Source: Rheinheimera texasensis DSM 17496 (GTDB taxonomy: Bacteria > Pseudomonadota > Gammaproteobacteria > Enterobacterales > Alteromonadaceae). Taken from it: DNA of 64,000 bases. The notes beneath the pieces were generated by a model, which made no database searches, had not been told where the DNA came from, and worked only from the letters and a program-made list of their open reading frames with translations. The translations under genes and the position numbers were made by a program. Positions 58,932-64,000 of the stretch are shown here, in pieces (position 1 is the stretch's first letter; each line of letters opens with the position of its first letter). The stretch spans positions 124,001-188,000 of the forward strand of contig NZ_JONU01000007.1 in NCBI RefSeq assembly GCF_000711985.1, written 5' to 3'.

Positions 58932-59008
<77 letters not shown>

Positions 59009-59092: not shown

Positions 59093-59169
<77 letters not shown>

Positions 59170-59778: not shown

Positions 59779-61584
59779 TTAAACAAAACTTTGCGAAAGT
59801 AGGTGTATTGTTTGACGCCAACGGCCTGGTTGGCCTCCTTTTATCTCACTGCCAATTTCGTAAATCCATTCAGATCCGTTGTAACGGATTTGCCAGGCGG
59901 CTGAGCACAACTCGCAGTTTGCTTTCAAACCTTTTTCATTTCGAACAATTAAGTTGGATTTAGTCGCTTTACATCCACAGCATGGACAAAACTTCATAAC
60001 TTCAGCAGAAAAATAGCTCTTCAAAACAGCTGCTTTATTCTTAGGCGCTAAATGAAAACTATCAATCCAACGATTAATGTTGAAGCCTTCGTTATCCAAA
60101 GCATAAAATACTCCGCGCGTATGCAACTGCGGCCACTTTGCAAGTATGGCATTTGGTAAGTTTGAAGGCGCCTCACCATACACTGATGCAAAAAGCGTCA
60201 TCCACCATCTTTGAACGAGCACGATTACCGATTCTTCAGAAAACAGGTTGTCTGGAGAACAATTAATAATTCCTTCTGAATCACCTTTCCAATTCAGACA
60301 ACACAAAATTCGCCCAGGCACAGATCTCAGTTCCACTGGGGATTCAATCAACGGTACGAATACAATTTCTCCGACAAAACCAGAATTTTGACTAGATAGG
60401 TGCCAATCTCCACCACATAAACTTAATTCCCCTTCAATTCCGGAAGGATGAGTTAAAACCCAGTTATTATCTGACCGAAACGATATCTTCCAGCCCATTT
60501 TTGTATGTGCGCGCAGCAGAAGCAAACCGATAAAATGTTGATAACATTCGACTTGGAATTGACGTTGTTGAAAAATCTGTACGTAATCTTTAGATCTAGA
60601 AGCTATTTCCTTTACCCATAACTCCCAGAGTTGGCGCACTTCTGTGTAGTGCTGATCATTATGCAAAATGTTTGTATTTTTCAATACCAGAGGAACTGCG
60701 GCATCTCTCGGAATACAGCGATATGTTTCCGTTTGTTTTAGCTGGAGGATTTTTGTTAGTTGTTCTTCCAAGCTGTTTAATTGGGTTTCAGACAGCTGTT
60801 TTATTTTTTCGGCTTCGCCCTGCTTAAAAGATTCGCCCCATGTTTCACAAACTGAATTTCTCAAACTCCGATGAAGGGAAGCACTTCCATCTAGTTCCAA
60901 TCCTTGGCGAAGAGCTTCATCAAGTTCAGAAAACCGTGCGATGAGGTTTCTAATGTATCGTTCTAAGTGGTCGACAAGTCTCGCGAAAACGCGATTTTCG
61001 TAAATGTGGACTTCATCCTCGCTGATCTTCGCCTTAAGTTTATTGGGTACTATTCCAGTGAAAGTCCGCTGCTGCCAACACTCCGAATGTGCAGCCAGAT
61101 GGCGTTGATAATTACTTGCTGTTCGCTTCACTCTAGACACAGGTAAAAGCTCTTCGTCATATCGCATAGTTATACGTGGCGACTTAGCGACAATCTGCAG
61201 ATGACCCAAGCTAAGGACACGGGTTAAAGCCATCTGTAATTCAGATGGCTCTAAACTTTTTGCAATTTCAGCAGGGATAACGGGCGAAACCAAATTTTCA
61301 GCTCTATAAATATCACCATGTGCTCTTATATTCTCGAGTGCGATTAGAGCTAACTCTCTTTTTGCCAATTGTCTGCTATCAAGCTTGGTTGAAACGAATT
61401 TAACAGTGGTAGTTGCTGTATCTAAGAAGCCTCGGCCATCATCAAGTAGGATTGTTCCTGCAGGCCATTTACCATGCAGCGCCAAAGATGTTTCATCAAC
61501 CAGCGCAAAACGCCCTGAAGAAACCGGGATAATAGAATTGTGTTCAACAATAACACCAGTCACACAATCACGAAGTCGCAGCAT
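59779..61584 (-). CDS. McrC/DUF2357-like protein with C-terminal zinc ribbon
   Basis: A 601-residue protein resembling the McrC/DUF2357 partners of McrB-type ATPases. The segment NYQRHLAAHSECWQ…EDEVHIYENRVFARLVDHLE near 165-220 matches the DUF2357 pattern. A helical middle follows. The C-terminus holds CPCCGCKATKSN…NCELCSAAWQIRY (about 533-568), a zinc ribbon. I do not see the PD-(D/E)xK nuclease motif of classical McrC, though divergence could hide it. The ATG overlaps the stop of the AAA+ gene (TGATG), so they are coupled. Confidence 0.7.
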   Translation of the reverse strand: MLRLRDCVTGVIVEHNSIIPVSSGRFALVDETSLALHGKWPAGTILLDDGRGFLDTATTTVKFVSTKLDSRQLAKRELALIALENIRAHGDIYRAENLVSPVIPAEIAKSLEPSELQMALTRVLSLGHLQIVAKSPRITMRYDEELLPVSRVKRTASNYQRHLAAHSECWQQRTFTGIVPNKLKAKISEDEVHIYENRVFARLVDHLERYIRNLIARFSELDEALRQGLELDGSASLHRSLRNSVCETWGESFKQGEAEKIKQLSETQLNSLEEQLTKILQLKQTETYRCIPRDAAVPLVLKNTNILHNDQHYTEVRQLWELWVKEIASRSKDYVQIFQQRQFQVECYQHFIGLLLLRAHTKMGWKISFRSDNNWVLTHPSGIEGELSLCGGDWHLSSQNSGFVGEIVFVPLIESPVELRSVPGRILCCLNWKGDSEGIINCSPDNLFSEESVIVLVQRWWMTLFASVYGEAPSNLPNAILAKWPQLHTRGVFYALDNEGFNINRWIDSFHLAPKNKAAVLKSYFSAEVMKFCPCCGCKATKSNLIVRNEKGLKANCELCSAAWQIRYNGSEWIYEIGSEIKGGQPGRWRQTIHLLSQSFV

Positions 61585-63908
61585 CACGCGATTTCCTTTC
61601 GCTCTAATTCCCTTTCAATTCGATCTTCACATTTGAAAGCCATATCTGCTTTAAATAACCGCTCCCAAACACTATTTAGATTCCCCTGGAGTTCTGATAA
61701 ATGCTCAGGTTTTGTGTCGTATCGTCCAGTTATTTTACCGTCTCGGAATAGCCGAACAGACAAAAGATGATCCAACGCTTGGCTCATTGAGCCTCCCGCA
61801 GCAACAACGACGGGTAAAAATTGCCTAGCTTGGCGCTCCAAGCGGTTTCCCCAGCCGATACCAAATCTTTTTTCCAAAACAGTAGTCAGCTCATGCTCAT
61901 AAAGAGTCTTGAAAACGTTATCTACTTCGGCACGATGAGAGGTGATTGCACTTTGGAAACTGACTCGAAGTGATGAAACGCTATAAATAACTTGTCTTTT
62001 AAGTGTTGACGGTAATTGCTGCATGCAGTTTCGTCCTAACTCTAATACAAAGCTTCGGTCTTGTGTTTTATCCGCAAACTCGAACGTAGTTTCATCATGG
62101 TTTGCGGTACCGATGAACCATACGTTATCTGCCACGGGTATCTTGCGCCCCTCTCTTAAATACCGAGGTGTTTTTGCCGGCGAATCCTCCATCAAAACAA
62201 CCTGTCTATCCTCACCAGACAATTCCATCGCCGAAAGAAACTCAGCAAAATATTGTTCTGGCCGTGAGAGGTTCATTTCGTCAAGGAGAATAATATTTAA
62301 ACGGTCTTGATATGTTGGCGTTTGGGCACGATAGAGAGCCTGTAAACACTCTTTTTCGTAATATCGCTTTTCAAAGGCATTGTAGTGCCCGACAAGGTCA
62401 TCTCGATCTCGCCACCCAGCCTGGACTGGAACCACTGTGCAATGTCCACCAACCGCACTCGCGAACGCTTTAGCTAAAGTCGTTTTTCCTGTACCGGAGA
62501 TCCCTTGAAAGATATGTAGCTGGCTCATCGCCAAGCCACCCAAAAATAACTGTAGCGTTTCTTTGTCAAAGTACAGAGGGTTATTGCGGTCGCTTCGGAA
62601 AATTCTTAACTGAAGTTCGTCGACAAATTCAGTAAGTGAGCCTACAGGTTGTGTTGAAGGGCTTTCGTTATATATCGTGTCCATCCGAGTTAACGCGGGG
62701 AAGACAGCCTGCCCTTGTTGTCGATCTTTTAACTCATCAATTTCTTGCTTTAATTGCGCGGTCGCAATTGAAATTGCATCGTTATGCTGCTGGAGGACGC
62801 GATTTTTCATCATCAAATTTTCGCGTTCCATAATGCCAATGGCTCTTTTATGACGCTCTGCATTTGCCTCATTTAGCTCTTGCTTTGCGTCTCGAAGTTG
62901 CTCTTCGAATGAACGATTTAAATCTCTTAGATGTTCGACTTCATCCTCTAAATCTTCAACAGGACGTCCAGAAAGTTTTTGCCGGTACTCTCTCATTGCT
63001 GATTCAATTTTTTCTACATGAAGTAAAAGCTCCTCAGCTGACTCCATACCTTTTTGCTTGAGTGCTCTTTCCAACTCAGAGAAATCCATTAGTCGCGTCT
63101 TCAAATCGAGCACATTAACTTCGTCACGTTTTCGGTAACTTTTTAATCGACCAATTTCAGATTCTAATTCTGCGATCTGCTGACTAAATTGCTGCTCAAG
63201 CTGAGCTTTCCTTGTTTGAACTGTTGTTTCAAGAAGCGACTCTTTCGCCGATAGTTCTGCTTCGTGCGATATCAGCTCTGCTTTGGCTTTCTCTAGTTCA
63301 AATTTGGTCTGTTGAATTGTCTGGGATGCTGCCAAAAAATCCGCAGACAGAGATCTGAGTTGCTCTTCTTCCATATTTGCGGCTTGCAAAAACTCGCTCT
63401 GACTTTTTGCCAACGACTGCATGTGATCTGCACGAACTTTTGACAATTCTGCTGTCAAGATTGCAAGGGATTGACTATGTTGAGTAATAAAACCAGCTTC
63501 GGCTTCAGCTTCTCGGGCTAAAAGTTCTTCCGCTTTTCTAAGAAGATCTTTTTCCTTTTTCAACAAAGCTGCCCGAATCTCTTGGGTCTCTTTACTACTT
63601 TGATTGTGTTCAGAAATTAAAGCCTCTAATTTTAATTTTTCAGCATCGAGCGAAGCTTTTAAGATATCAGCCTGAGCTCGGGCTTCAGTAATCGCTTGAA
63701 GTTCGGCTTCATAATGTTTTTTAGATTCGGTGAGTTGATCGACTAGTTGATGCAAATTTTCAGTTTGGTCTTTTTCTAACGCACTCAAAACAGAATTGTC
63801 CGGCTTAATTCCGGTCACGGCTTCAATCTTTTCGCCCATAGCAGTTTTTGATGACTTCGGTGTCATGTATGGTGCCGGAATACCAGCTTGTTTGTGTCGT
63901 TTAACCAC
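61584..63908 (-). CDS. Coiled-coil protein with McrB-like AAA+ domain
   Basis: A 774-residue protein. Residues about 40-395 are a long charged coiled coil. The AAA_5/McrB-like ATPase is at about 440-700: Walker A GISGTGKTTL near 469, GWRDRDDLVGHYN near 498, Walker B IILLDEMNLS near 539 and sensor GTANHDETT near 600, with QDRS near 616. Classical McrB has an MNxxD GTP-specificity motif; here the matching region is TANHDET, so nucleotide preference is open. The start is GTG (GAAGGA upstream). It pairs with the McrC-like gene. Confidence 0.75.
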   Translation of the reverse strand: MVKRHKQAGIPAPYMTPKSSKTAMGEKIEAVTGIKPDNSVLSALEKDQTENLHQLVDQLTESKKHYEAELQAITEARAQADILKASLDAEKLKLEALISEHNQSSKETQEIRAALLKKEKDLLRKAEELLAREAEAEAGFITQHSQSLAILTAELSKVRADHMQSLAKSQSEFLQAANMEEEQLRSLSADFLAASQTIQQTKFELEKAKAELISHEAELSAKESLLETTVQTRKAQLEQQFSQQIAELESEIGRLKSYRKRDEVNVLDLKTRLMDFSELERALKQKGMESAEELLLHVEKIESAMREYRQKLSGRPVEDLEDEVEHLRDLNRSFEEQLRDAKQELNEANAERHKRAIGIMERENLMMKNRVLQQHNDAISIATAQLKQEIDELKDRQQGQAVFPALTRMDTIYNESPSTQPVGSLTEFVDELQLRIFRSDRNNPLYFDKETLQLFLGGLAMSQLHIFQGISGTGKTTLAKAFASAVGGHCTVVPVQAGWRDRDDLVGHYNAFEKRYYEKECLQALYRAQTPTYQDRLNIILLDEMNLSRPEQYFAEFLSAMELSGEDRQVVLMEDSPAKTPRYLREGRKIPVADNVWFIGTANHDETTFEFADKTQDRSFVLELGRNCMQQLPSTLKRQVIYSVSSLRVSFQSAITSHRAEVDNVFKTLYEHELTTVLEKRFGIGWGNRLERQARQFLPVVVAAGGSMSQALDHLLSVRLFRDGKITGRYDTKPEHLSELQGNLNSVWERLFKADMAFKCEDRIERELERKEIA

Positions 63909-63947
63909 GGTCCAATCCTTCGAAAAATGTATTTAAAAAATAAGTAG

Positions 63948-64000
63948 TTATCGTTGCAGCCTGTAATGCTGTATTTTTGGAATTATCAGCTCGGCTATCT
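63948..64000 (-). CDS. Possible C-terminus of an upstream gene (partial)
   Basis: An open frame from the right edge ends in TAA at 63948-63950 after about 16 codons (IAELIIPKIQHYRLQR). It lies 39 bases before the AAA+ gene in the same direction, where another island gene would end. It is too short to identify and may be chance. Confidence 0.2.
   Translation of the reverse strand, partial: IAELIIPKIQHYRLQR

Follow-up and report, generated by a model that had tools for sequence, protein, structure and literature searches.

Pair at the edge of the window

The DNA analysed here (the window, 64,000 nucleotides) belongs to Rheinheimera texasensis DSM 17496 and corresponds to C5:124001-188000, where C5 is contig NZ_JONU01000007.1 of a 4.59 Mb genome. 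Two genes at its right-hand end were identified as CnuB and CnuC of a Type II CoCoNuT (Bell et al., 2024, eLife, PMC11090510). With a probability of about 0.9, the pair is transcribed last in a superoperon that runs RtcR-like activator, sigma54 promoter, HsdRMS, further genes, TerY-P, CnuH, CnuE, CnuB and CnuC. Positions without a contig name are those of the window (Table 1). L and G numbers are working labels of loci and genomes.

Both open reading frames (ORFs) are intact, lie on the minus strand where the original prediction had put them, and share four bases (GTGA). The long coiled coil and following AAA+ domain that it proposed for CnuB were recovered. Residues 37-403, a coiled-coil-like stretch of ~365 residues, hold one proline among 367 residues; none of 200 shuffles equalled the heptad periodicity of residues 45-410 (a periodicity test, run with no dedicated coiled-coil program); and AAA_5 matched above the Pfam cut-off (E=4e-6). 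PDC-M26A was the best PADLOC model (E=1.2e-40) and is a candidate name only. A PDB sequence search with CnuB gave nothing useful. The NxD motif, which according to the main text of Bell et al. (2024, PMC11090510) defines the McrB-like branch of CoCoNuTs, was found in all 60 CnuB ORFs extracted from 64 loci. It mostly reads GTANHDE, as it does in R. texasensis.

CnuC was aligned as the R. texasensis sequence plus 50 of 57 extracted ORFs (alignment A2; three of outlying length and those of L020, L044, L051 and L067 were omitted). The DUF2357-like partner of the original prediction was confirmed by profile search at the level of the family, 27 of the 51 members matching DUF2357 at E<=0.01 (best 6.8e-7), but not for the R. 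texasensis protein itself, which stayed below the cut-off (E=0.014). Zinc-ribbon cysteines C534, C537, C558 and C561 (two CxxC) are kept in 44, 51, 48 and 51 of the 51 sequences, respectively. Within residues 330-499, E452 is the sole invariant acidic column and lysine columns are all <50%; the alignment holds no conserved (D/E)xK motif. In Type II CoCoNuTs, CnuC is expected to contain an inactivated PD-(D/E)xK domain. Neither PF10117 (the McrC family) nor Hsp70 matched CnuC at E<=1, and no PADLOC model matched CnuC (E<=1) or CnuE (E<=0.1). PDB sequence searches with the CnuC and CnuE profiles gave nothing useful. CnuC was modelled by AlphaFold2 (mean pLDDT, the predicted local distance difference test, 89.3); general, mostly helical matches were all that a second fold comparison returned.

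Seven-gene row

Only part of the operon is in the window, whose edge falls 92 bases upstream of the CnuB start. Further along that strand the parent contig carries CnuE, CnuH, a kinase, a PP2C protein and TerY (VWA); CnuE shares 8 bases with CnuB and 17 with CnuH. A contig scan over 84,980 species yielded 63 CnuB loci, or 64 with L004. Gene order was counted where at least 8.5 kb of sequence precedes CnuB, as it does in 56 loci, and the other 8 were set aside as shorter. All seven genes were present in the same order and on the same strand in 54 of the 56, the exceptions being L057 (no CnuE match) and L066 (no TerY or CnuE match). The relationship to CoCoNuTs suggested in the original prediction is thus upheld by the seven-gene order and the NxD motif. 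A sample of 369 genomes of the class gave two more CnuB matches, which were not used in the promoter test described below.

The CnuE model (AlphaFold, mean pLDDT 88.6) has a helical C-terminus, and its residues 45-115 match the winged helix 2x4h_A (Z 10.9, root mean square deviation 1.4, 67 residues). The winged helix-turn-helix (wHTH) family PF24409 was matched by 35 of 44 members, and not by the R. texasensis protein at E<=0.01. R464 and H469, a HEPN-type RxxxxH motif (RDSAAH in R. texasensis), are kept in 43 of the 44 aligned sequences, some with one extra residue between them; this alignment (A1) comprised the R. texasensis protein and 43 of 47 extracted ORFs (two short ones, L020 and L067 were omitted). 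Of the 47 extracted CnuE ORFs, 35 have R-x4-H within their last 120 residues and 46 have R-x4/5-H there. The HEPN protein Csm6 appeared among the CnuE fold matches only at E>1.

CnuH (1103 amino acids) carries an AAA_11/AAA_12 helicase (Pfam) preceded by ~400 residues; the CnuH of Type II CoCoNuTs is expected to have SmpB-like (SPB) and RelE-like (RTL) domains as well. Its closest structures are a 5'-3' RNA helicase-like protein, NAM7, UPF1 and SEN1 (E=6e-16 to 2e-12). In the TerY-P triad, VWA, PP2C_2 and Pkinase all scored above the Pfam cut-offs, and the kinase has cysteine pairs (CxxxxC and CPFC) after its kinase domain, as a zinc-ribbon kinase.

Annotated plasmid copies in Rhodoferax and Polaromonas have the same gene order. 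A DUF4258 gene lies between the sigma54 activator and TerY in the Polaromonas copy; it may be the gene resembling BrnT reported at this place by Bell et al. (2024, PMC11090510, main text). The Polaromonas naphthalenivorans plasmid, pPNAP01 (L109), is typed as conjugative and carries, next to the CoCoNuT with its sigma54 activator, zorA and neighbouring genes on the opposite strand.

Upstream superoperon

Upstream of TerY, the same strand carries in order a UvrD/zinc-finger helicase, small genes, a putative metallo-beta-lactamase-like gene, an ankyrin-like gene, a second large helicase-like gene, HsdS, HsdM, HsdR and an RtcR-type activator. The Type I restriction-modification (RM) subunits R, M and S were recognised with PADLOC, as was the activator (RtcR_PspF2, E=1.1e-175; CARF/sigma54 type). 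The ankyrin-like gene scored below the Pfam cut-offs. Gaps of 213, 265 and 243 bp precede TerY, the UvrD-like gene and a 107-amino-acid gene, respectively. Druantia III genes start divergently (DruH models, PADLOC). The upstream layout is the published CoCoNuT superoperon plan, with RtcR, Type I RM and a divergent Druantia III.

Two side observations were made in this region. DruH is split into C5:217839-219380 (513 amino acids) and C5:219377-221134 (585 amino acids) with a 4-base overlap; PADLOC DruH models have ~1100 residues, and the first ORF covers approximately the first 500 model positions. Judged from sequence, the ORF after DruH may be DruE. Between Type I RM and the CoCoNuT there is a second large helicase-like gene (1123 amino acids, L003:4163-9599 region) whose best PADLOC match is MkoA, as for CnuH; the genes of 159, 176 and 346 amino acids beside it had no strong PADLOC match. 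This group is perhaps a separate defence module.

Sigma54 site behind RtcR

The sigma54 promoter consensus is TGGCACG-N4-TTGCW. A site TGGCAC-N5-TTGC is present at C5:215997-215983 (minus strand), 17 bp past the RtcR stop and directly before HsdR, and is the sole full TGGCAC-N5-TTGC on either strand within C5:180001-255000. When the RtcR-HsdR gap was shuffled 1000 times, 2 shuffles scored as high. The genome has rpoN.

Conservation was assessed in two sets of relatives with a rule requiring GG and GC and allowing <=2 mismatches elsewhere; this rule was fixed after a weighted score had been applied to the first 18 loci. These 18 form the first set: the flanking sequence retrieved for them includes RtcR, on the same strand as TerY and 13-1214 bp upstream of it. 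From the 23 RtcR-bearing flanks, five were dropped: L017 (opposite strand), L023 and L054 (downstream), and L064 and L066 (no TerY match). A site was present between the RtcR end and TerY in 13 of the 18, against 0.51 expected in the same loci. The second set comprised 24 new loci, the full-length RtcR matches among 33 further genomes. In 23 of them RtcR is on a contig exactly as long as that of CnuB, apparently the same one, and in 22 it lies, by coordinates, 17-36 kb upstream on the same strand. Within -60 to +300 of the RtcR stop, a range fixed after the positions in the first set had been seen, 16 of the 24 had a site (0.37 expected), 15 of these 16 at +4 to +14.

These counts are not independent, because many loci are related and sites are identical: the same site, TGGCACGGTCCTCGCT, occurs in 7 of the 24 second-set loci, and L035, L043-L045, L050 and L051 of the first set share one site type. 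As for the plasmid loci, that of Rhodoferax has a site with 1 mismatch and that of Polaromonas none within 2 (best 3). The sequence behind RtcR is a promoter-like sigma54 site that is conserved among relatives.

RtcR without RtcA and RtcB

The activator resembles the RtcR of the RtcBA operon of E. coli and Salmonella in being a CARF-AAA-HTH sigma54 activator (PADLOC). It differs in its genomic company. The E. coli protein needs RtcA and RtcB (Kotta-Loizou et al., PMC9650030), whereas neither was matched in the R. texasensis genome, which is listed as 100% complete; the E. coli control was positive for both. One full-length RtcR match was found in this genome, and 14 others start at query residue 140 or later and are without most of the CARF part. 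Of 39 genomes of relatives with RtcR upstream of the CoCoNuT, 11 had an RtcB match and 4 an RtcA match; 28 gave no RtcB match and 35 no RtcA match. The 39 are of unstated completeness, and some are metagenome-assembled genomes.

The main text of Bell et al. (2024, PMC11090510) suggests that CoCoNuT could complement RtcAB. In most of the 39 genomes an RtcAB pair for it to complement was not found. Since R. texasensis yields no RtcA or RtcB match, its RtcR may sense broken RNA by itself. More generally, the absence of RtcAB matches means that the CoCoNuT-linked activator would work differently from E. coli RtcR or take its signal from elsewhere.

Genomic island

The cluster forms one end of an island of 77 kb that is bounded by tRNA-fMet copies. 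The tandem tRNA genes and the island at a tRNA gene had both been proposed in the original prediction, and both were found. ARAGORN located two tRNA-Met (CAU) genes next to the pair, 610 bases past the CnuC stop. An exact 82-bp tRNA-Met copy was located at C5:260471-260552, 77 kb from the left tRNA pair, and a tyrosine integrase (Arm-DNA-bind_2, Phage_integrase) at C5:258491-259684. An empty site was identified in G018 (rlmKL 96% identical), in which the homologue of C5:261055-261996 adjoins the tRNA-fMet pair with no island between; in R. texasensis the two are ~78 kb apart. G009, the nearest genome by rlmKL, was not used because its contig ends there. The predicted AT-richness was also seen, with a G+C content of 0.40-0.45 at 59-64 kb against 0.50-0.52 at 55-59 kb (0.47-0.48 at 52-55 kb). 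None of the 21 other genomes of the genus that were searched gave a CnuB match.

Beside the distal tRNA-Met copy, four 126-bp tandem repeats (C5:260537-261036) contain pieces like the tRNA 3' end; it is possible that they are attachment-site relics. The island also carries a canonical McrBC pair (L068:19502 to L069:2794) with the motif GTMNTADR (NxxD) and a PF10117 match at E=2e-98; hhalign of CnuC against this McrC gave a probability of 0.2 of 100. At L068:8832-14729 a UvrD-like helicase with a PD-(D/E)xK domain (1059 amino acids) adjoins a PD-(D/E)xK protein (904 amino acids), a putative recombination- or exonuclease-like pair. Near the island end, L069:10927-15999 holds a 1690-amino-acid ORF that had no Pfam match at E<=0.001; we take parts of it to resemble a tyrosine recombinase.

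Table 1. Positions of the CoCoNuT genes, their motifs and the flanking tRNA genes (window positions unless a contig is named)
Feature	Position	Strand	Evidence
CnuC, McrC/DUF2357-like partner, 602 amino acids, last gene of operon	59779..61587	-	ORF; DUF2357 in 27/51 members; AlphaFold2 pLDDT 89.3
CnuC zinc-ribbon cysteines C534, C537, C558, C561	59905..59988	-	alignment conservation
CnuB, coiled coil + McrB-like AAA+ GTPase (predicted), 774 amino acids	61584..63908	-	ORF; AAA_5; PADLOC PDC-M26A; 63 relatives
CnuB coiled-coil-like region, residues 37-403	62700..63800	-	proline count, heptad shuffles
CnuB Walker A GISGTGKT	62481..62504	-	sequence
CnuB NxD signature GTANHDE (shortened McrB motif), residues 600-606	62091..62111	-	NxD in 60/60 CnuB ORFs
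CnuE 3' end (wHTH-HEPN, 502 amino acids)	63901..64000, remainder outside window; whole gene C5:187901-189409	-	ORF, R464/H469
tRNA-Met (CAU), chromosomal side of island	58932..59008	+	ARAGORN
tRNA-Met (CAU), left island edge	59093..59169	+	ARAGORN, blastn
tRNA-Met further copy, right island edge	C5:260475-260551		ARAGORN, blastn

Comparison with known systems

The locus was compared with the systems that share parts of it. With Type II CoCoNuTs as described in the main text of Bell et al. (2024, PMC11090510) it has in common the gene set, order and overlapping frames, NxD motif and coiled coil, a UPF1-like CnuH, a CnuE with wHTH and HEPN-type motif and a two-CxxC zinc ribbon in CnuC. The TerY-P triad, frequent rather than core, is shared as well, as are RtcR and Type I RM upstream, which are frequent, and Druantia III next door; no difference in kind was found. 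Type III-A CoCoNuTs likewise have TerY-P, CnuH and a HEPN CnuE. Their CnuC is an Hsp70-like and HEAT fusion with no zinc ribbon, whereas the 602-residue CnuC of R. texasensis has a zinc ribbon and no Hsp70 match; its CnuE, with 502 residues, has one conserved RxxxxH-type motif. Canonical McrBC also pairs an McrB-like AAA+ protein with an McrC-like partner and was rejected, because the motif is NxD (NHD) instead of NxxD and PF10117 is absent from CnuC. The place of the CoCoNuT coiled coil is taken in canonical McrB by a small domain that binds DNA (Bell et al., 2024, PMC11090510, main text).

This CoCoNuT type was predicted in 2024; what is new is that a sigma54 site is conserved behind RtcR and that RtcAB are often missing. 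Neither was found in the parts of Bell et al. (2024) that were consulted, the main text mentioning "promoter" once, on internal promoters (PMC11090510), or in the literature matches returned by our search.

Proposed working and alternatives

The locus, in an island at a tRNA gene, is probably a defence system. Gene content and order, the motifs, the structure of the island and the conserved promoter-like site were observed directly. The working of the locus is proposed largely after Bell et al. (2024, PMC11090510, main text), from whom we infer the trigger, the order of action, the complex, its RNA target and the antiphage outcome. Infection or RNA damage would produce RNA ends with 2',3'-cyclic phosphate. 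The CARF activator would bind such ends, oligomerise and fire the sigma54 promoter just behind its own gene. Type I RM products would appear first and cut DNA. The CnuB NTPase ring, probably joined to CnuC, would then load with CnuH on aberrant or phage RNA, and the CnuE HEPN RNase would be released, stopping translation if DNA restriction had failed.

Several points weigh against this scheme. Foldseek against the PDB gave no match at E<=0.001 for the CnuC or CnuE models. Fold searches gave no significant McrC, PD-(D/E)xK nuclease or HEPN match for either protein, which leaves these folds unproven rather than excluded. At <=2 mismatches, 8 of the 24 second-set RtcR genes have no site: L113 and L118, in which RtcR is not upstream, L110 and L112, with 3 mismatches at +16 and +10, and L114-L117. 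The three CnuB relatives nearest to R. texasensis are L114 and L117, both among these eight, and L120, which has a site with 1 mismatch. The 32-kb row contains gaps of up to 265 bp and therefore has room for internal promoters. The E. coli activator needs the RtcA and RtcB that R. texasensis appears to lack, and so the activator may not work as drawn. Finally, an experimental test of any CoCoNuT was not found in the publications that our literature search returned; ARMADA and Druantia III have been tested experimentally (passages of PMC12458937).

The alternative that survives best, which we nevertheless hold to be rather unlikely, is that the CoCoNuT has its own promoter and that the RtcR-like regulator serves the adjacent Type I RM genes only. 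The gaps before TerY, the UvrD-like gene and the 107-amino-acid gene would accommodate such a promoter, and some of the closest relatives have no clear sigma54 site. Against it, in 13 of the 18 first-set loci the site lies between the RtcR end and TerY itself, with RtcR 13-1214 bp away.

It is less probable still that the TerY-P/CnuH module serves in the response to stress or metals, as a device of the tellurite-type TerY-P signalling kind, and not in antiphage defence. TerY-P triads have been described in tellurite resistance (earlier work cited in the main text of Bell et al., 2024, PMC11090510), and in Salmonella DNA damage leads to a build-up of tRNA fragments to which RtcR responds (passages of PMC7790460, 2020). 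Such a device sits poorly with a locus placed among Type I RM, Druantia III and canonical McrBC on an integrated island, and with the lack of a CnuB match in the other genomes of the genus. The original reading, that CnuB and CnuC act alone as a compact, undescribed two-gene McrBC-like system, has in its favour that only two overlapping genes are visible in the window. It was rejected as hardly credible, since the overlapping frames continue upstream on the parent contig and 54 of 56 relatives with enough flank keep seven ordered genes. The locus, which the window edge cuts through, has the usual seven-gene make-up of a Type II CoCoNuT.

Returning to the superoperon with the CoCoNuT transcribed last, a broader proposal can be made for its regulator, for and against which we find the case evenly balanced. 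The CoCoNuT-linked RtcR may be a free-standing infection sensor whose CARF domain would, with neither RtcA nor RtcB, read broken RNA directly and fire the conserved sigma54 promoter behind its own gene. A single timed cascade would then switch on whichever defence genes are adjacent, beginning with Type I RM and others and ending with the CoCoNuT, and the promoter rather than the cargo would be the conserved organiser of the islands. Of the immune systems predicted in bacteria, CoCoNuTs belong to the more elaborate ones, and the intact copy in R. texasensis makes the published idea of a broken-RNA trigger testable concretely and cheaply.

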